Assembly: GCA_015494795.1 (NCBI GenBank)
Contig: WGAM01000004.1
Location: forward strand, 1 to 39,258
Reading direction: 5' to 3'
Length of the DNA stretch: 39,258 bases
Origin: Campylobacterota bacterium
Lineage (GTDB): Bacteria; Campylobacterota; Campylobacteria; Campylobacterales; Sulfurovaceae
Shown one piece after another: positions 16,037 to 25,117 of the stretch; the first letter of the stretch is position 1, and each line of letters starts with the position of its first letter. A program made the position numbers and the translations under genes. A model generated the notes under the pieces. The model searched no databases. It saw nothing but the letters and a program-made list of their open reading frames with translations, and was not told the origin of the DNA.

Positions 16037-17668
16037 TTAATGATTACTTATCAATAAAAAAATAAGCCATAAATTAACAATAAATGAGAGTGTAAAAGCA
16101 ATCCTATAGAAAAGTGAAGGGTTTCGCTCTTGTAGAGTCATATTTTTATGAAAATAGGGTTTTACCTTTTCTGGATTATTAATCTCAAAAAGCATCTCAG
16201 AGTAATTTTTATAGCGAAGTTTACTATCTCTACTTATAGAGCGTAAAATAACACTATTGAGCCATGCTGGTATCTTACTATTCTCTTTTATAGGTTGTGT
16301 TGGCTCTTTAAAGCTAGGTGTTTGAAAAGGTTCTATCTCACCATAAGGAAATCTACCTGTTAATGCTTCATAGAGAGTAACTCCAATAGCAAAAAGTTCA
16401 GTAGATTCATTAATACTACTTCCTAAAAAACGCTCAGGAGCTAAGTAAGATGGTGTTCCTGCATTTGAGGTTATGCTATAGAGTTCAGTCATTGAGCCAA
16501 AATCAATAATTTTAAAAATATGTTTTCCATGTCTCTCTAGCACCATAATATTTTCAGGTTTAATATCCCCATGTACCAAATCATATTTAAGTAGATATTG
16601 TGCCATTTTTAAAAGAGTTTTAGCTAAAGTAATAGCATCATCAACGGAGAGTCTTCTCTGTTTTAGATGAGTTTTAAGGTTAACCCCCTCTAAATACTTC
16701 ATTATATAATAGCGATGTGTTCGTTTTTTAGGAATAACGGCTTTGGGAAAAAATCCAGCTTTAAGTCTTTTAGAGTTCCATGCCTCTTTAACATAGAGGT
16801 CTAATATGGAAGAGTCATCTAATGCCTCAATAGGAGCAAACTTAAGTACATAATTTTGACCTCTTTTAGAACAGAGCCAAGTACGATTATTTTGAATAAG
16901 AGATTTTTCAAGCTTATATCCATCTATTACCATATCTTTACTAAGACTCTGTGGAATAATAAGCTTTTGTTGTTTTAGAGTATGAACAGGACAAATATCC
17001 AATACCTCTACCACTACAGCAGTGGTATCATCAGGCAGATTATCCTGCATAAGATAACTAGCTTGTTTTACAATAGCATGAGCTGTACCTATATTTAATA
17101 GAGTTGTTTTAATCTTATTATCACTCATAACAGCATTAAGACCATCACTACAAAGAAGTAGCCTATCTCCTCTATTAATCTTATTTTCAAAATAGTAAGG
17201 GAAGACCTCATCAGCAATTCCAACTGCTTGTGTCAACATATTACCTTCAGCTTGGTCATGTGAAATTTGAGTAAGTTTTTGATTTCGTAAAAGATATATT
17301 CTACTATCTCCTACATTTGCCCCATAGAGTCTATCACCTTCAATAACAGCAATGGCAAGAGTAGTTACCAATTCAGGTCGTTCATAATTAATTATTGACT
17401 CTTGATAAAGAATACTATTAATTGAACTAATAAATGTTTTGATTGATTTTTCAATGCTCCAACTCTGTGGACGATTTTTAAAGTTATTCATAAGGTATTT
17501 TGTAACTCGCCTTGCAGCCTCAGCCCCCTCATCGGCACTACCCACACCATCACATACAATAGCAATAGTAAAGTTATCTATACTCTTTACATCAAAGTAA
17601 TCATCACCAATTAACTCTTTCCCTTTTGCTAGTGAGAAGCCTGAAGTTTTTATGTTTTGTTTAGACAT
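16037..17668 (-). CDS. PP2C phosphatase-Ser/Thr kinase fusion with C-terminal membrane anchor
   Basis: The track starts at TTG 17689, but ATG 17668 (MSKQNIKTSGF) is preferred because AAAAAGGAAATTCC provides a ribosome site and the extra residues are only poly-Lys. The product is about 543 residues. A PP2C domain (1-230) shows CDGVGSADEGAEAA, GANVGDSRIYLL, CSDGLNAVMSD and DDTTAVVVEV. A protein kinase domain (about 245-510) shows VLKFAP, LVHGDIKPENIMV, IIDFGSM and GTPSYLAPE. A C-terminal helix (FTLSFIVNLWLIFLLI) anchors it, with both enzymes in the cytoplasm. It lies 75 bases after narK. This fusion recurs beside nitrate transporters in many proteobacteria, so control of nitrate uptake or reduction is likely, but targets are unknown. 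Confidence 0.85.
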   Translation of the reverse strand: MSKQNIKTSGFSLAKGKELIGDDYFDVKSIDNFTIAIVCDGVGSADEGAEAARRVTKYLMNNFKNRPQSWSIEKSIKTFISSINSILYQESIINYERPELVTTLAIAVIEGDRLYGANVGDSRIYLLRNQKLTQISHDQAEGNMLTQAVGIADEVFPYYFENKINRGDRLLLCSDGLNAVMSDNKIKTTLLNIGTAHAIVKQASYLMQDNLPDDTTAVVVEVLDICPVHTLKQQKLIIPQSLSKDMVIDGYKLEKSLIQNNRTWLCSKRGQNYVLKFAPIEALDDSSILDLYVKEAWNSKRLKAGFFPKAVIPKKRTHRYYIMKYLEGVNLKTHLKQRRLSVDDAITLAKTLLKMAQYLLKYDLVHGDIKPENIMVLERHGKHIFKIIDFGSMTELYSITSNAGTPSYLAPERFLGSSINESTELFAIGVTLYEALTGRFPYGEIEPFQTPSFKEPTQPIKENSKIPAWLNSVILRSISRDSKLRYKNYSEMLFEINNPEKVKPYFHKNMTLQERNPSLFYRIAFTLSFIVNLWLIFLLISNH

Positions 17669-17743
17669 AAGGAATTTCCTTTTTTTCAACTTACTATTCT
17701 CTCATTCCCACGCAGAACATGGAAATAAATTTGGAGATAAAAT

Positions 17744-19024
17744 TTAAATTCGTCCACCAGCTTGAAGCCCCCAAGTTGTTCTCCAACGAGTCTTAACCAT
17801 TGAGATACCAATAATAGCTACAAGAACAACACCTGCAAAAATCATAAATCCAGCAGAGTAACCATTAAATGCACCTTTACTCCAACCAAGTGTTTTAATA
17901 AGAGCTGTACCACCAAGTCCACCTGCAGCACCAATAATTCCTGTCATAATACCAATATCTTTACCAAATCGTTGTGGAACAAGTTGAAACACAGCACCAT
18001 TTGCCATTCCTAAATTTGCCATAATTAAAAATAGTACTAAAATCGCTATCCAAAATGGAAGAGTTATTAAGGCATTTAAAATAGCTAATAGTGTAACAAC
18101 TCCAAAGAAGATATATAGAGACTTAATTCCACCCATCTTATCTGCTACAGCACCCCCAACAGGTCTTAAAACTGCACCTGCAAAAATGGTTAATGCTCCA
18201 AAATATCCTGCAATTACTTTAACATTTGGCTCATTAAACCACTCTAATCCAAGTGATGACATATCTGCTTGATAACTATTCATAAGATATACTTTCATAT
18301 ATCCAGCAAAACCAACAAAACCACCAAAACTAATCGCATAAAATAGATTAAACCACCATGTATCTTTATCTCTTAGTAGTTTAGTATAATCTTTTAATTT
18401 TTTTGGTCTAGGTGTATATATCTCTTTAGGTGCATCTTTTGCCATAAATATATATGTAATAAATATTAGAGTAGATAGTGAACCTGCTACTAAAAATACT
18501 GCTTGCCAACCCCATAGTTCTGCAATTTTAGGAGCAAATAGAAAATCTATAACAACACCAATATTTCCAGCTCCTGCAATTCCTAATACAATCCCTTGAA
18601 GTTTTGGTGGATACCACTGTCCTGCTTGTGGAAGTGCTACAGCAAATGAAGCACCTGCAAAACCTAATCCTAAAGCAACAACTAAAAGTTCATTATATGA
18701 GATATGCTCTCCTCTAATATAAGCATAAAATAGAACTGAAATAACAACAGCTTGTGACATAAGTGCTGTCTTTTTTGCACCAAACTTATCAACTCCAAAT
18801 CCTAAAAGTATTCTAAGTAATGCTCCAGATAAAATAGGAATAGATAGAAGTGTAGCTTTGGCACTAGCACTCATAACAAATCCTCCATTTGATAGTGAAT
18901 CTGCTATCTCTGTAGATAGAGGTCCTAACATTGTCCATACCATAAAAGAAAAATCAAAGTATAAGAATGCTGCAAATAGTGTTTTTGCATCTCCTTGTCC
19001 TTTTAGTGCTTTAAATCCTGCCAT
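17744..19024 (-). CDS. narK: NarK-type nitrate/nitrite transporter (MFS)
   Basis: The 426-residue protein has 12 predicted membrane helices and the nitrate/nitrite porter pattern of the major facilitator superfamily. The start FSFMVWTMLGPLSTEIA, the FAVALPQAGQWYPPKLQG segment and the glycine-rich IAGAGNIGVVID and GAAGGLGGTAL nitrate-signature helices are visible. It is divergent from nirA across a 257-base promoter region and followed by the PP2C-kinase. With nirA and nasA this indicates nitrate import for assimilation. A nitrite-export role cannot be excluded. AAAGGAG precedes the ATG. Confidence 0.92.
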   Translation of the reverse strand: MAGFKALKGQGDAKTLFAAFLYFDFSFMVWTMLGPLSTEIADSLSNGGFVMSASAKATLLSIPILSGALLRILLGFGVDKFGAKKTALMSQAVVISVLFYAYIRGEHISYNELLVVALGLGFAGASFAVALPQAGQWYPPKLQGIVLGIAGAGNIGVVIDFLFAPKIAELWGWQAVFLVAGSLSTLIFITYIFMAKDAPKEIYTPRPKKLKDYTKLLRDKDTWWFNLFYAISFGGFVGFAGYMKVYLMNSYQADMSSLGLEWFNEPNVKVIAGYFGALTIFAGAVLRPVGGAVADKMGGIKSLYIFFGVVTLLAILNALITLPFWIAILVLFLIMANLGMANGAVFQLVPQRFGKDIGIMTGIIGAAGGLGGTALIKTLGWSKGAFNGYSAGFMIFAGVVLVAIIGISMVKTRWRTTWGLQAGGRI

Positions 19025-19281: not shown

Positions 19282-21204
19282 ATGAGTACTATTCTACAGA
19301 GTGCATTTGATAAAAGGAATAGAAAGCAGAACAAAATAGAGAAGATTAAAGAGACTAAATTACCATTAGATGTATATAGTAAGCTTGAAGAGATAGCTAA
19401 AGGTGGGTATGATAATCTATCAAAAGAGGATAGTAGCTATTTTTTAAAATGTTTTGGTCTTTTCGATAAAGGCGAAGATTTTATGCTTCGTGTTCGTGTT
19501 CCTATTGGACAACTCAATAATACTCAAGCAATACGAATTGGAGAGGTTGCTAAGGAGTATGGAGATGACTATATAGATATTACTACAAGAATGCAGATAG
19601 AGCTTCGTTATATAAAAATAGAAAATATAGCAAAAGTTTTAAAATCTCTTGATGAGGTTGGAATTACTACATTTCAAACAGGTGTTGATAATCCTAGAAA
19701 TATTGTATCTGACCCACTTGATGGATTGGCATTTGATAATATTATAAATACAAAGCCGATTGTTGATGAACTCCAAAATTTAATAATTAAAAATCCTGAT
19801 TGGATATCTGTATTACCTAGAAAATTTAATACAGGTATCTTAGGTTCTCTCTCTAACTCATGTAATATATTTGGACATGACTGCTGTTTTGTTTTAGCAA
19901 ATTTAAACGGAGAGTTTGGATTTAATGTATATTTAGGTGCTAGAGTTGGTGTTCAGGCAAAAGATGCTAACCTATTTGTATCTATTAGTGAAGTTAGTAG
20001 CTTCTATATGGCACTATTAGAGACATTTAAAACTTACGGTTATAGAGATAATAGAAATAAAAATAGATTACATTTTCTACTTCAAGATGTGGGAGTAAAA
20101 GCTTTTGTTGATGAGATAAAAAGAAGAGCAGGTAAAAACTTCTCTCCTGCTGGAGCTACTCTTGTTCAATCTAAAAATATAGCTTTAGGCTCAAATAGAG
20201 TTCTACTTAAAAATGGTAAATATGCTCAAAAAGTTATTGTTCCATCTGGAATTTTTAGTGGTAGTGATATGATAGAGTTAGCAAAAAGGGCAGAGAGTTT
20301 CGGTTCTGGTGATTTAAGATTGACTTATGACCAAAATATATATGTTGTAAATCTTGATATTAATGCTTTAGATGCTTTTAACTCAACTACTATAGTTAGC
20401 AAATATAAACCTTTTAATAATATCTATTTTAACGATATGATAGCTTGTGCTGGTACAAAAACTTGTAGTTTTGGAGTTATTCCAAATAAGCCTGATGCTA
20501 TTGAGATGGCTCACTTTTTAAACTCAGAGGTAAAAATAGAGAGTGGAATGGTAAGAATGAACTGGTCGGCATGTCCTAAAGGGTGTGGAGTTCATGGAAT
20601 TGCAGATATTGGATTTGAAGGGTGTAAAGCTAAAGATGATAATGGGAAAAGAGTTGATGGTGTCCATATCTTTTTAGGTGGAAAAATAACCCGTGAAGCA
20701 AAAGAGGCACATACTTTATATAAAGCTCTACCTATTACTGAAGCAAAATATCATGTAAAATATCTTTTAGAGGTATATGCTGAATTTAAAAAGAGAGGGG
20801 AGACTTTTGAGTGTTTTGAAAATCGATATCTTTCTACAAACTACTCATATCAAGCTATTAGCTTTTATACAAAAATCAATTATATCTTAAATGAAAAATT
20901 AAATTTAGGTGTAAAATTAAAATTAGAAGAAAAACCAAAAACATATAAAAAAGAGAACTTTGAAATATTTAATTTTGGATTAAAACTATTTAAACTCCTT
21001 ACAAATGAGAAGCGTTATGTAGCTGTTGAAGATTTTGAACCAGTTTTAAATCAACCTAGAAAGATTAAAAGAGATGAGATTAGTAAAATAAATCCAAAAG
21101 TACCAAAAAAATTGAGTGAAATTATCTATACAATGACTGATAATAATAGAAAAACAAGAGCATCTGTCTTTTCTGAATTATTAATTGAACTAAAAGGAGT
21201 ATAA
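19282..21204 (+). CDS. nirA: Ferredoxin-type assimilatory nitrite reductase (siroheme, 4Fe-4S)
   Basis: The enzyme reduces nitrite to ammonium with six electrons. The 640-residue protein has two ferredoxin-like/NIR_SIR half repeats. The cluster-siroheme ligands are C389 and C395 (CAGTKTC) and C431 and C435 (CPKGC). TTRMQIELRYI in the N-terminal half is the usual substrate-side segment. NirA is more often 500-600 residues; here a Lys-rich C-terminal extension (about 530-640) follows the core. The family also contains sulfite reductases, but the setting with narK and nasA decides for nitrite. Its stop is two bases before the start of the ferredoxin/membrane subunit gene. Confidence 0.9.
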   Translation: MSTILQSAFDKRNRKQNKIEKIKETKLPLDVYSKLEEIAKGGYDNLSKEDSSYFLKCFGLFDKGEDFMLRVRVPIGQLNNTQAIRIGEVAKEYGDDYIDITTRMQIELRYIKIENIAKVLKSLDEVGITTFQTGVDNPRNIVSDPLDGLAFDNIINTKPIVDELQNLIIKNPDWISVLPRKFNTGILGSLSNSCNIFGHDCCFVLANLNGEFGFNVYLGARVGVQAKDANLFVSISEVSSFYMALLETFKTYGYRDNRNKNRLHFLLQDVGVKAFVDEIKRRAGKNFSPAGATLVQSKNIALGSNRVLLKNGKYAQKVIVPSGIFSGSDMIELAKRAESFGSGDLRLTYDQNIYVVNLDINALDAFNSTTIVSKYKPFNNIYFNDMIACAGTKTCSFGVIPNKPDAIEMAHFLNSEVKIESGMVRMNWSACPKGCGVHGIADIGFEGCKAKDDNGKRVDGVHIFLGGKITREAKEAHTLYKALPITEAKYHVKYLLEVYAEFKKRGETFECFENRYLSTNYSYQAISFYTKINYILNEKLNLGVKLKLEEKPKTYKKENFEIFNFGLKLFKLLTNEKRYVAVEDFEPVLNQPRKIKRDEISKINPKVPKKLSEIIYTMTDNNRKTRASVFSELLIELKGV

Positions 21205-21206
21205 TA

Positions 21207-22796
21207 ATGGAAAATAGAACACCTTTAGAGTCATTTATAAACCATAAAGCCAAGACAGGAATGCAATGTGGTAACTACAGCATAGATATTCCTGAGCTAA
21301 AAGAGGGTGAACAGTACCGTTTTCACTTTGATGCAACTGCTTGTGTAGGGTGTCACTGTTGTGAAGCTGCATGTAATGAGCTTCAAAATAACCCTGCTGA
21401 TGTAAAGTGGCGACGAGTTGGTGAGATGGAGGGGGGAGAGTTTCCTAATGTCTTACAGTTTTTTAACTCAATGTCATGCAACCACTGTATTGAGCCTGAA
21501 TGTCTTAAAGGTTGTCCAACTAACTCTTATATAAAATTTGAAGATAGTGGAATTGTTTGGCATGATGATGATAGCTGTATTGGGTGTCAATACTGTACAT
21601 GGAACTGCCCCTATGAAGTGCCTGTTATGAATTACGATAGAGGCATTGTTACTAAATGTGATATGTGTCATGATAAACTCGCTATTGGTGAAACTCCTGC
21701 TTGTGTTCAAGCCTGTCCTGCTGGTGCTATTGAGATTGAAGTGGTAAATAAAGAGGAGTGGATAAAGCATAATATGGAAAAAGAGGGAGTTGCACCTCAT
21801 CTTCCTGATATTGAAATTACTAAACCAACTACACGCTATACTCTTCCTGAAAATATGCCTCAATTGAGTCCTGCTGATGAGAGACTACTAAAACCTGCCC
21901 ATGCAGAGTTACCTTTAGTATTTATGACAATCTTAACTCAAGTATCATTAGGTGCATTCTTAGCTCTCTTTTTAGGTCAAGTTCTTTTCTCTTTAGGGTT
22001 TAATCTACCTGAACCATCATTAGCTATGGCAATTATAGCATTTATTCCATCTGCCATTGGGTTACCTCTCTCTGCTCTACATTTGGGTCGTCCTATTATG
22101 GCAATGACAGCTATGAAAAATTGGAAAACCTCATGGTTAAGTCGTGAAGCTATTGCTTTGGGTGCTTATACAGGCTTAGCTACAGTAGTAGCAGGAATGT
22201 ACTTTTTAGAGATAAAAGGGTTTACTCTTATTTTTGTAGAGGCTATAACCTTAATAATAGGGATTTTTGGTATCTATGCACAATCAATGATATATAGAGT
22301 AAAAGCAAGACCTGCATGGAATAGAGTATCAACCACTAAAAGATTTTTTGGTTCAGGTTATATTGGTTTTTTACTTATCTCTATACTACTTCTAATTAAT
22401 AATGGTGGAGCAGGTGCAACAGTACTTTTAGCTGTTTCTCTATTGGCTGGTATGGCACAAGTATTGATTGTCTATGAAGAGGTAATGTTTTATCGTCATT
22501 TAAATAAAAGTGACCCACTTTATTACCAATTAAATAGAACACGAATATTACTTAAAGAGCATTTTGGTCAGATTAAAAAGTTTAGACTCTATAGTTTAAT
22601 TGGATTTGCTTTAGTTTTACCACTATTGGGTGTACTCTTTACAGCAAGTGGATTAATTAATTTAGCAATTACTACACTTGTAATATCAACTGTTGGTGCA
22701 TTGCTTTCTGAATTAGCAGGACGATACTTATTTTATAGAACTGTTGTCCCTTTGGGATTAGCAGGAAACTTTTTTGCTGGAAATCAGAGAGGATAG
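21207..22796 (+). CDS. Fused four-cluster ferredoxin (DmsB-like) and DmsC-like membrane anchor
   Basis: The 529-residue protein joins two subunits that are separate in most molybdoenzymes. Residues 1-190 have four 4Fe-4S motifs (CVGCHCCEAAC, CNHCIEPECLKGC, CIGCQYCTWNC, CDMCHDKL with CVQAC). Residues 235-520 have about eight membrane helices of the DmsC/NrfD-like anchor type (LPLVFMTILTQVSLGAFLALF). It sits between nirA and nasA with two- and eight-base gaps. It probably takes electrons from menaquinol and passes them to NasA, giving membrane-bound nitrate assimilation. No Tat signal is present, so the cluster domain faces the cytoplasm. Whether it also feeds NirA is open. Confidence 0.88.
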   Translation: MENRTPLESFINHKAKTGMQCGNYSIDIPELKEGEQYRFHFDATACVGCHCCEAACNELQNNPADVKWRRVGEMEGGEFPNVLQFFNSMSCNHCIEPECLKGCPTNSYIKFEDSGIVWHDDDSCIGCQYCTWNCPYEVPVMNYDRGIVTKCDMCHDKLAIGETPACVQACPAGAIEIEVVNKEEWIKHNMEKEGVAPHLPDIEITKPTTRYTLPENMPQLSPADERLLKPAHAELPLVFMTILTQVSLGAFLALFLGQVLFSLGFNLPEPSLAMAIIAFIPSAIGLPLSALHLGRPIMAMTAMKNWKTSWLSREAIALGAYTGLATVVAGMYFLEIKGFTLIFVEAITLIIGIFGIYAQSMIYRVKARPAWNRVSTTKRFFGSGYIGFLLISILLLINNGGAGATVLLAVSLLAGMAQVLIVYEEVMFYRHLNKSDPLYYQLNRTRILLKEHFGQIKKFRLYSLIGFALVLPLLGVLFTASGLINLAITTLVISTVGALLSELAGRYLFYRTVVPLGLAGNFFAGNQRG

Positions 22797-22804
22797 GAGA
22801 TACA

Positions 22805-25117
22805 ATGTTACATAAAATAAAAGAATTTTTAGGCGTAGATATAAAAATAGATAAATATAAAAAAGCAGATGATATAAAGTTTGGTAAAATCTCTAAATTT
22901 AAAATACCAGATGAGTGGGTTCGTAGCACTTGTGGCTATTGTGGTGTAGGGTGTGGACTCTATATTGGAGTTAAAAATGGACGACCTGTTTACACTAAAG
23001 GAGACCCTTCTCACCCTGTAAGTAAAGGGACTCTTTGTCCTAAAGGGTTAACAGAACATGAGATGGTGGACTCTAATAACCGTGTAACAACTCCTATGAT
23101 ACGAAAAAATGGAGCATTACAAGCTGTAGAGTGGGACGAAGCGTTCTCTTATACGGCTAAAAAATTTCAAGATATTCAAGCCAAATATGGTAAAGGTGCA
23201 GTTGCGTGTATCTCTACTGGGCAGTTCTTAACTGAAGATTTTTATACTTTAGGTAAATTTGTTCAACTGGGACTAGAGACAAATAACTATGATGGGAATA
23301 CCACTTTGTGTATGGCTTCAGCTGTAATGGGGTATAAACAGAGTTTTGGTTCCGATGGTCCTCCTGCTTCATATGAAGATTTCTCCTATGCTGATGTTAT
23401 TATGTTGATTGGTGCAAATATTGCAGATAATCACCCTATTTTAAAGCTTCATATTGCTAGAAATAAGAAGATTAGAGGCAAAAAACCGACTATTATTGTA
23501 GTTGACCCTCGACACTCAAAAACAGCAAATATGGCAGATATATTTGTACCATTAGCTCCACGAAGTGACTTAGCGTTAATTAATGGACTTTGCTACATTA
23601 TCTTTGAGCAGGGTTGGGAAGATGAGAAGTTTATAAAAGAGAGAACAAGTGGAGCTTTAGAGTTTAAAAAACATATTATGAAAAACTACCCACCACAAGA
23701 GGTAGCAAATATTACAGGTATAGAGGTAAAAGAGCTTTATCGTTTAGCTAAAGTATATGCATCAGCAGATAGAGCTATGAGTGCATGGACAATGGGGGTA
23801 AATCAAAGCTCTATAGGGACAGATACTGTTTCTGCTATATGTAATTTAGCACTAATTACAGGAAACTTAGGAAAAGAGGGTGCTTCACCATTCTCTATTA
23901 CTGGTCAATGTAATGCTATGGGAACTCGTGAATTTGGATTTACCTCTTCTATACCAGGGTATAGAAATTATTCATCAAAACAAGATAGAGAAGAGTTTGC
24001 TAATATTATTGGAGTTCCAATAGAGCTTATTCCAACTAAAAGGGGATATGCCTATCCAGAGATAATAGAGGCTATAGATAGAGGAGAGATAAAGGCTCTT
24101 TGGGTAACAGCAACCAATCCACTAGTATCATTTCCTGACCAAAATAGATTACGAAGTGCCTTAAAAAAGCTTGATATTTTAGTTGTTCAAGATGCATTTA
24201 TGTCTGAAACAGCTCAAGAGGCAGATGTAATATTCTCTGCTGCTACTTGGAGTGAAAAAGAGGGAGTCTATACAAACTCAGAGCGACGATGTAACTATGC
24301 AAAAAAGGCTGTTGAGCCATTAGGTAAAACAATGAGTGATGCCAATATTGTTATAGAGTTCTCTAAATATTTTGAGGGTAAATATGAGTTACTCTTTAAA
24401 GATTTTAAAAGTAGTAGAGATATATTTGAAGAGATAAAGCTTGTTAGTAAAGGTCAACTATGTGACTACTCTGGAATGAGTTATGAGAAGATAGAAGAGT
24501 TAGGAGGTATTCAATGGCCATGTAATGAACAGTATCCAGAGGGTAAAAAGCGTCTCTACACAGAAGGTTTTGATTGCCCTACTGATGATGGAAAAGCAAA
24601 ACTCTTACCTGTAGATTGGAAACCTTTAAGTGAGTCATGTAACCCTAACTTTCCTCTAAATCTAAATACAGGTAGAACTGTAGAGCAGTGGCATACACGA
24701 ACTAAAACTAAAACTATTTCACTTTTAAATGATTTAGCACCAGAAGCGTGGGTTGAGCTTAATCCTAAAGATGCTAAAAAGCTAAAAGTAAAAAGTGGTG
24801 ACAGAATTAAAATAGGTTCAAGTCGTGGAAGTGTTGAAAATCTTATTGTAAAGGTTACAGAAGTTGTGCGAGAAGGGGATTGTTTTGTTCCATTTCACTT
24901 TAGTGAACAGATGATAAATAATCTTACCATTGCTGACTTTGACCCAAAATCATTTGAACCTAACTTTAAACAGTGTGCTGTTAATATATACTCTGACAAT
25001 GTTCCTGAAGGGATTAAAATGGAAGAGACTAAGATAGCAGGAGAGTTAGAGGAGCAAAATAGTGCTAAAAACTCAAACTATATAGAAGAGCTATCTTCTA
25101 AAAAGAGAGAGGTTTAA
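22805..25117 (+). CDS. nasA: Assimilatory nitrate reductase catalytic subunit (Mo-bisMGD)
   Basis: The enzyme reduces nitrate to nitrite in the cytoplasm. The 770-residue protein has an N-terminal 4Fe-4S site (C43, C46, C50, C78; CGYCGVGC ... TLCPKG). The molybdenum ligand is probably C169 in TTLCMASAVMGYKQSFG, the Nap/Nas-type pattern. Molybdopterin-binding segments (ANIADNHPILKLH, ATNPLVSFPDQNRL) and the C-terminal molydopterin-dinucleotide domain (from about 620) follow. There is no Tat signal, which separates it from NapA, and no C-terminal BFD [2Fe-2S] domain as in some NasA. It ends the nirA-BC-nasA operon. AGGAGATAC precedes the ATG. Confidence 0.92.
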   Translation: MLHKIKEFLGVDIKIDKYKKADDIKFGKISKFKIPDEWVRSTCGYCGVGCGLYIGVKNGRPVYTKGDPSHPVSKGTLCPKGLTEHEMVDSNNRVTTPMIRKNGALQAVEWDEAFSYTAKKFQDIQAKYGKGAVACISTGQFLTEDFYTLGKFVQLGLETNNYDGNTTLCMASAVMGYKQSFGSDGPPASYEDFSYADVIMLIGANIADNHPILKLHIARNKKIRGKKPTIIVVDPRHSKTANMADIFVPLAPRSDLALINGLCYIIFEQGWEDEKFIKERTSGALEFKKHIMKNYPPQEVANITGIEVKELYRLAKVYASADRAMSAWTMGVNQSSIGTDTVSAICNLALITGNLGKEGASPFSITGQCNAMGTREFGFTSSIPGYRNYSSKQDREEFANIIGVPIELIPTKRGYAYPEIIEAIDRGEIKALWVTATNPLVSFPDQNRLRSALKKLDILVVQDAFMSETAQEADVIFSAATWSEKEGVYTNSERRCNYAKKAVEPLGKTMSDANIVIEFSKYFEGKYELLFKDFKSSRDIFEEIKLVSKGQLCDYSGMSYEKIEELGGIQWPCNEQYPEGKKRLYTEGFDCPTDDGKAKLLPVDWKPLSESCNPNFPLNLNTGRTVEQWHTRTKTKTISLLNDLAPEAWVELNPKDAKKLKVKSGDRIKIGSSRGSVENLIVKVTEVVREGDCFVPFHFSEQMINNLTIADFDPKSFEPNFKQCAVNIYSDNVPEGIKMEETKIAGELEEQNSAKNSNYIEELSSKKREV

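Follow-up and report, generated by a model that had tools for sequence, protein, structure and literature searches.

What does a protein that carries a phosphatase, a Ser/Thr kinase and a membrane helix on one chain do directly behind the gene for a nitrate transporter? The question is raised by a 39,258-nucleotide stretch of DNA (hereafter the window) from a Campylobacterota bacterium of the Sulfurovaceae, whose genome assembly consists of 154 contigs. On balance, we favour the view that this kinase/phosphatase (KP) would be a dedicated membrane-anchored regulator which reversibly phosphorylates the transporter encoded just upstream, a reading that comes from comparing genes and proteins across genomes.

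The KP gene and its two catalytic domains

Positions 16037-19024 hold two genes on the minus strand, narK and, 55 bp downstream of it, KP (Table 1), so that the claim of an earlier note on this DNA, namely a kinase and a phosphatase on one chain directly after narK, stands with small corrections. The KP frame has 550 codons, yet translation probably starts at the ATG at 17668 (543 aa) and leaves the TTG at 17689 unused, because an AAGGAA site precedes this ATG and MSKQNIKTSGFS is also where close homologues start. Residue numbers of KP are counted below from ATG 17668, domain limits from the 550-aa frame. The narK product matches TIGR00886 over the full model (E=9.8e-68) with 228.9 bits, which is below the curated cut-off of 311.7, and with the reductase genes beyond it the window locus is an assimilatory nitrate locus. 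Scans for sigma-54 (NtrC-type) and sigma-70 promoters gave nothing above chance. The nearest KP relatives are found in the organism's own genus and, among named records, in Sulfurovum and Arcobacteraceae. One genome (L106 in G309) has two narK copies in tandem, whose products show 69% and 78% identity to that of the window, and a search of long open frames for a NarK-KP gene fusion found none.

Table 1. Features of the nitrate locus in the window
Feature	Positions	Strand	Basis
KP: PP2C domain, Ser/Thr kinase domain and single C-terminal transmembrane helix	16037..17689	-	Pfam, alignment, predicted structure
NarK-family nitrate/nitrite MFS transporter; C-terminal tail KTRWRTTWGLQAGGRI	17744..19024	-	TIGR00886, alignment
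C-terminal codons of narK, encoding the tail with RWRTTWG	17744..17797	-	TT invariant in KP-bearing NarKs of this branch
Ferredoxin-type nitrite reductase (NirA-like), divergent from narK	19282..21204	+	profile matches
Fused DmsB-like Fe-S / DmsC-like membrane anchor subunit	21207..22796	+	profile matches
Molybdopterin nitrate reductase catalytic subunit (NasA/NasC-like)	22805..25117	+	profile matches, genome survey

Two Pfam domains account for most of KP: PP2C_2 (PF13672, E=4e-17) covers residues 28-230, and Pkinase (PF00069, E=2e-25), which matches from profile position 69 only, covers about residues 256-500. Across 80 KP relatives the phosphatase residues Asp23, Asp40, Asp121, Asp168, Asp175 and Asp213, among them the metal-binding aspartates, are invariant, and so are Lys276, Glu295, His366, Asp368, Asn373 and Asp389 of the kinase; since these catalytic residues never vary, both active sites are under selection. 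The PP2C site is thus complete, as had been claimed. To speak of a complete Ser/Thr kinase was an overstatement, in that Lys276, Glu295, Asp368, Asn373 and Asp389 are kept while the Gly-rich loop (GxGxxG) is absent in the alignment from KP and from all its aligned relatives, for which reason kinase activity cannot be assumed. The HGD in place of HRD was read correctly: the RD motif is missing, with Gly standing for Arg, and among the 80 relatives the middle residue is Gly in 41, Gln in 33, Ala in 3 and Arg in 3. As the family is thus mostly non-RD, it is plausible that activation-loop phosphorylation may be dispensable for this kinase.

A kinase can be active even though its glycine loop is atypical. 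The loop's absence from every aligned relative would also fit a kinase half that is a nucleotide-binding pseudokinase, regulating the phosphatase while another kinase phosphorylates the target. We regard this as very unlikely given that Lys, Glu, the HxD Asp, Asn and the DFG Asp are kept in 80/80 relatives and that a search of the window genome returned a single other kinase/PP2C locus.

An AlphaFold2 model built with 80 relatives (mean pLDDT 94.3) consists of two folded domains and a C-terminal helix. In Foldseek the first domain matches PppA, tPphA, PstP and Stp1 and the second the kinases Stk1, PknB and PknA, and a PP2C-kinase fusion is not found among the 50 best matches listed. The C-terminal helix proposed earlier is confidently predicted (26 residues, 517-542) and hydrophobic in all aligned relatives; a charged stretch before it and a very short end after it would fit a tail-anchored protein whose two enzymes face the cytosol. 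The PppA, PstP, Stp1 and tPphA phosphatases and the PASTA kinases (PknB/Stk1), whose folds match single KP domains, are separate polypeptides, whereas KP has both activities' domains on one chain. KP further differs from these systems by its lack of PASTA domains (111.6 bits against the NCBIfam PASTA kinase model NF033483, whose cut-off of 450 is not reached) and of a kinase Gly loop, by the absence of adjoining T6SS genes and by its C-terminal tail anchor.

Elsewhere in the window genome (contig C20; L332:2164-7523) an unfused PP2C (457 aa) and a Ser/Thr kinase (609 aa) adjoin a 712-aa FtsW/RodA-like protein, a phosphorylation system distinct from that of KP. In a gammaproteobacterium (L278:427-1815) a separate kinase of 462 aa without a PP2C match is encoded immediately upstream of KP.

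Inheritance of KP with its transporter

With KP counted at E<1e-140, 42 of 298 Campylobacterota genomes contain it; the window-type NarK is likewise present in 42/298, the two sets of genomes are identical and the other 256 have neither. Linkage with narK in other genomes, the absence of which the earlier note had named as grounds for refutation, was therefore found in 42/42 against 0/256. Fisher's test gives p about 4e-52, a value that is descriptive only because the genomes are related and hence not independent. In 31 of the 42 genomes no more than 300 bp separate narK from a KP that follows it downstream on the same strand, and in 8 more the distance stays within 4 kb, while in the remaining three the genes are about 6-9 kb apart (two genomes) or on separate contigs (one). 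Within the window's genus most genomes agree on KP and NarK, and the misses are incomplete or fragmented assemblies. An apparent NarK without KP in G300 was discounted, KP being present there and cut by a contig end.

The reductase behaves otherwise. Its window-type form occurs in 32/298 genomes, a set that differs from the one shared by NarK and KP, and in one genome (G249) it is present without either; it follows that KP goes with the transporter and not with the reductase.

Of 143 gammaproteobacterial genomes, 40 carry the local NarK type, and KP is present in 38 of these, the two exceptions being a contig that ends 0.4 kb after narK (G463) and a divergent NarK with 48% identity (G410). The recurrence of the pairing that had been asserted earlier is borne out in Verrucomicrobiota and in Alpha-, Beta- and Gammaproteobacteria, with a wider scan placing KP behind NarK in Verrucomicrobiota and Beta-, Gamma- and Zetaproteobacteria. 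Plasmid records add a nirB-nirD-NarK-KP row in Catenovulum and nirBD, nitrate reductase, MFS and KP genes in Methylocystis. For some KPs of Gammaproteobacteria the stretch examined contains no transporter gene, and on a Shewanella plasmid neither a NarK nor an FNT (formate/nitrite family) gene is annotated next to KP. Cases of this kind in GC-rich loci were mostly an artefact of the ORF filter, as tblastn recovered the transporter at many of them.

A second transporter family and other candidate targets

A second group of KPs (type B), 24-26% identical to the window subfamily (type A), follows an FNT transporter, often together with cyanase or with NirB or NirA. In the KP tree all FNT-linked proteins form one clade, sister to the NarK-linked ones, with 100% SH-aLRT, and a genome with both transporters usually has two KPs. 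Where two KPs are present, one mostly follows NarK and the other FNT (as in Neptuniibacter, Methylobacter, Dechloromonas and further genomes). In a Rhodocyclales MAG (L168:5633-11458) NarK, a type-A-like KP, FNT and a type-B KP stand in one row; a KP of this locus that seemed to be NarK-linked yet fell inside the FNT clade was rejected as a counterexample, the FNT gene being directly before it. FNT-KP pairs are also carried by plasmids of Azospirillum lipoferum, Cupriavidus and Pseudoalteromonas and, with cyanase, of Acinetobacter (L223) and Psychrobacter. The Psychrobacter plasmid pA17P2 (L228) is a 17-kb mobilizable plasmid with FNT transporter, KP and cyanase among its cargo.

These loci help to choose between the targets proposed in the earlier note, which were NarK, the DmsC-like anchor and a nitrogen regulator. 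Reductase genes do adjoin KP in the window and in many relatives, as one would expect if KP acted on a reductase (for nitrate or nitrite) or on the DmsC-like anchor. The reductase type varies, though, and in many KP genomes is absent or encoded elsewhere, and the plasmid records show no reductase genes near the FNT-KP pairs, which makes a reductase or anchor target most improbable. Because linkage tracks the transporter rather than reductase or anchor, and because of the FNT-KP plasmids, NarK is favoured and the anchor disfavoured.

The nitrogen regulator survives as a rival in the form of PII (GlnK). KP might phosphorylate PII, or another soluble nitrogen regulator, and so control the transporter indirectly, as a counterpart of PII phosphorylation in cyanobacteria. 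What keeps this alternative alive is that KP adjoins amt-glnK in several Sulfurovum relatives. In at least six Campylobacterota relatives, near the window genome (L077, L079, L107, L108, L109, L111), amt and glnK are directly beside KP instead of narK, which is elsewhere or not found there; overall, PII lies within 6 kb of KP in 17 of 92 loci, 6 of them without narK. Moreover, tPphA, one of the best fold matches of the KP phosphatase domain, has a relative, PphA, that is a PII phosphatase, and in cyanobacteria PII gates nitrate uptake by binding NrtABCD (PMC6603209). Since PppA, PstP and Stp1 match this fold as well as tPphA does, the fold says little about PII. In most loci it is NarK or FNT, and not PII, that is near KP, and one KP per transporter type, in clades sorted by transporter, would be unexpected for a shared soluble target. 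To our minds a PII target is therefore rather unlikely. The same amt-glnK neighbourhoods suggest, under the favoured view of a transporter target, that ammonium is a likely signal for KP.

A candidate phosphosite and a proposed reversible switch

If the transporter is the substrate, its cytosolic Ser/Thr residues deserve attention. The C-terminal tail of 103 of the 104 KP-linked NarKs in the window branch carries RWRTTWG, and the remaining one has KWRTTW; in the window NarK the Thr pair corresponds to Thr416/Thr417 of the cytosolic tail. Ten related plasmid-borne NarKs with no KP nearby, ~40-44% identical to the window NarK and judged for KP from their gene surroundings in plasmid records, have no Thr pair, although their tryptophans are mostly kept (RRSW, RSRW, RADF, RATW, KKTW, KRTW and others). 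In a more distant branch, RTW takes the place of the motif in two NarKs that are linked to KP. On a tree built without the tail columns there are 2-4 independent contrasts, with which the correlation between RWRTTWG and KP is not significant, so that the motif is a lead and not proof. Thr416/Thr417 would be the best candidate site in this branch.

Among the cytosolic Ser/Thr segments of the gammaproteobacterial NarK type, PKGSTYFKP..MEVTS is the most conserved, and the single KP-less relative lacks the GST. Gammaproteobacterial KP-linked NarKs such as L185:5299-6765 and its relatives have ~60 aa more and show an additional hydrophobic stretch that follows this segment, between the two halves of the protein. 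For the FNT branch no phosphosite could be put forward with confidence.

The strict pairing and the membrane anchoring would be accommodated equally well by a sensor-effector pair. In that case the transporter would be the sensor (transceptor), its transport state would govern KP, and a regulator further down the pathway would be phosphorylated by KP. Two-component-type genes adjoin KP in some genomes, as this arrangement might lead one to expect. Yet no conserved second partner of a regulatory kind was found in the KP neighbourhoods examined, the plasmid FNT-KP cassettes have no regulator beside the pair, and a transceptor alone leaves the NarK tail's Thr pair unaccounted for; we consider such an arrangement unlikely.

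We infer instead that KP acts on the transporter itself; the phosphosite, the direction of the effect and the signal that KP receives are likewise inferred in the following scheme. The C-terminal helix would keep both catalytic domains at the inner membrane face beside NarK, where the kinase domain would phosphorylate a cytosolic Ser/Thr of the transporter (with Thr416/Thr417 in the RWRTTWG tail as candidates) and the PP2C domain would take the phosphate off again. Uptake could in this way be stopped and restarted quickly and without new protein synthesis, for example when ammonium arrives or nitrite builds up.

NRT2 and NarK both belong to the NNP branch of the MFS. In Arabidopsis a PP2C dephosphorylates and activates the nitrate transporter NRT2.1 (Ohkubo 2021, cited in PMC12742734), so that there, as proposed for KP, a PP2C acts on a high-affinity nitrate transporter. 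In Arabidopsis phosphatase and kinase are encoded by different genes and do not share a chain, which makes this an analogy to KP and not a homology of the regulatory pair. Plant ammonium transporters, too, are acted on by a kinase and a PP2C (PMC9516733). AmtB-GlnK and NrtABCD-PII are further cases in which a partner protein controls a nitrogen transporter rapidly and post-translationally, although PII acts by binding and without covalent modification of the transporter, whereas the control proposed for KP is covalent (PMC6603209).

Plasmid proteins with the same PP2C-kinase architecture and the same position behind NarK or FNT already bear an automatic NCBI name, 'bifunctional protein-serine/threonine kinase/phosphatase', and the window KP is 25-28% identical to them over 89-99% of the query (E about 1e-34 to 1e-60). 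PA1782 of Pseudomonas aeruginosa probably lies between nasA and nirB, in an arrangement like that of KP. It is listed among at least three Ser/Thr kinases of that species, and no function is given for it there (PMC8560001). Neither a function of KP nor its link to transporters was found in the literature searched, outside which lie many subscription papers, and an earlier description is possible.

Joint inheritance of KP with nitrate/nitrite transporters across phyla suggests that uptake may be switched by phosphorylation, much as in plants. Whether this holds generally, so that every transporter of inorganic-nitrogen anions (NarK in the case of nitrate/nitrite, FNT in that of nitrite or cyanate) is toggled through covalent phosphorylation by its own tethered KP as a mobile regulator-transporter unit and bacterial counterpart of PP2C-NRT2.1 control, seems to us evenly balanced. 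To our knowledge, the arrest of uptake within minutes of ammonium addition is, for MFS-type nitrate transporters, unexplained at the protein level. PII binding explains such arrest for the cyanobacterial ABC transporter, and KP offers a testable candidate for the MFS type, with likely residues named. If true, this would be a bacterial case of a phosphorylation-controlled nitrate transporter, converging with plants, and would give a functional assignment to a widespread family that has carried an automatic name only.
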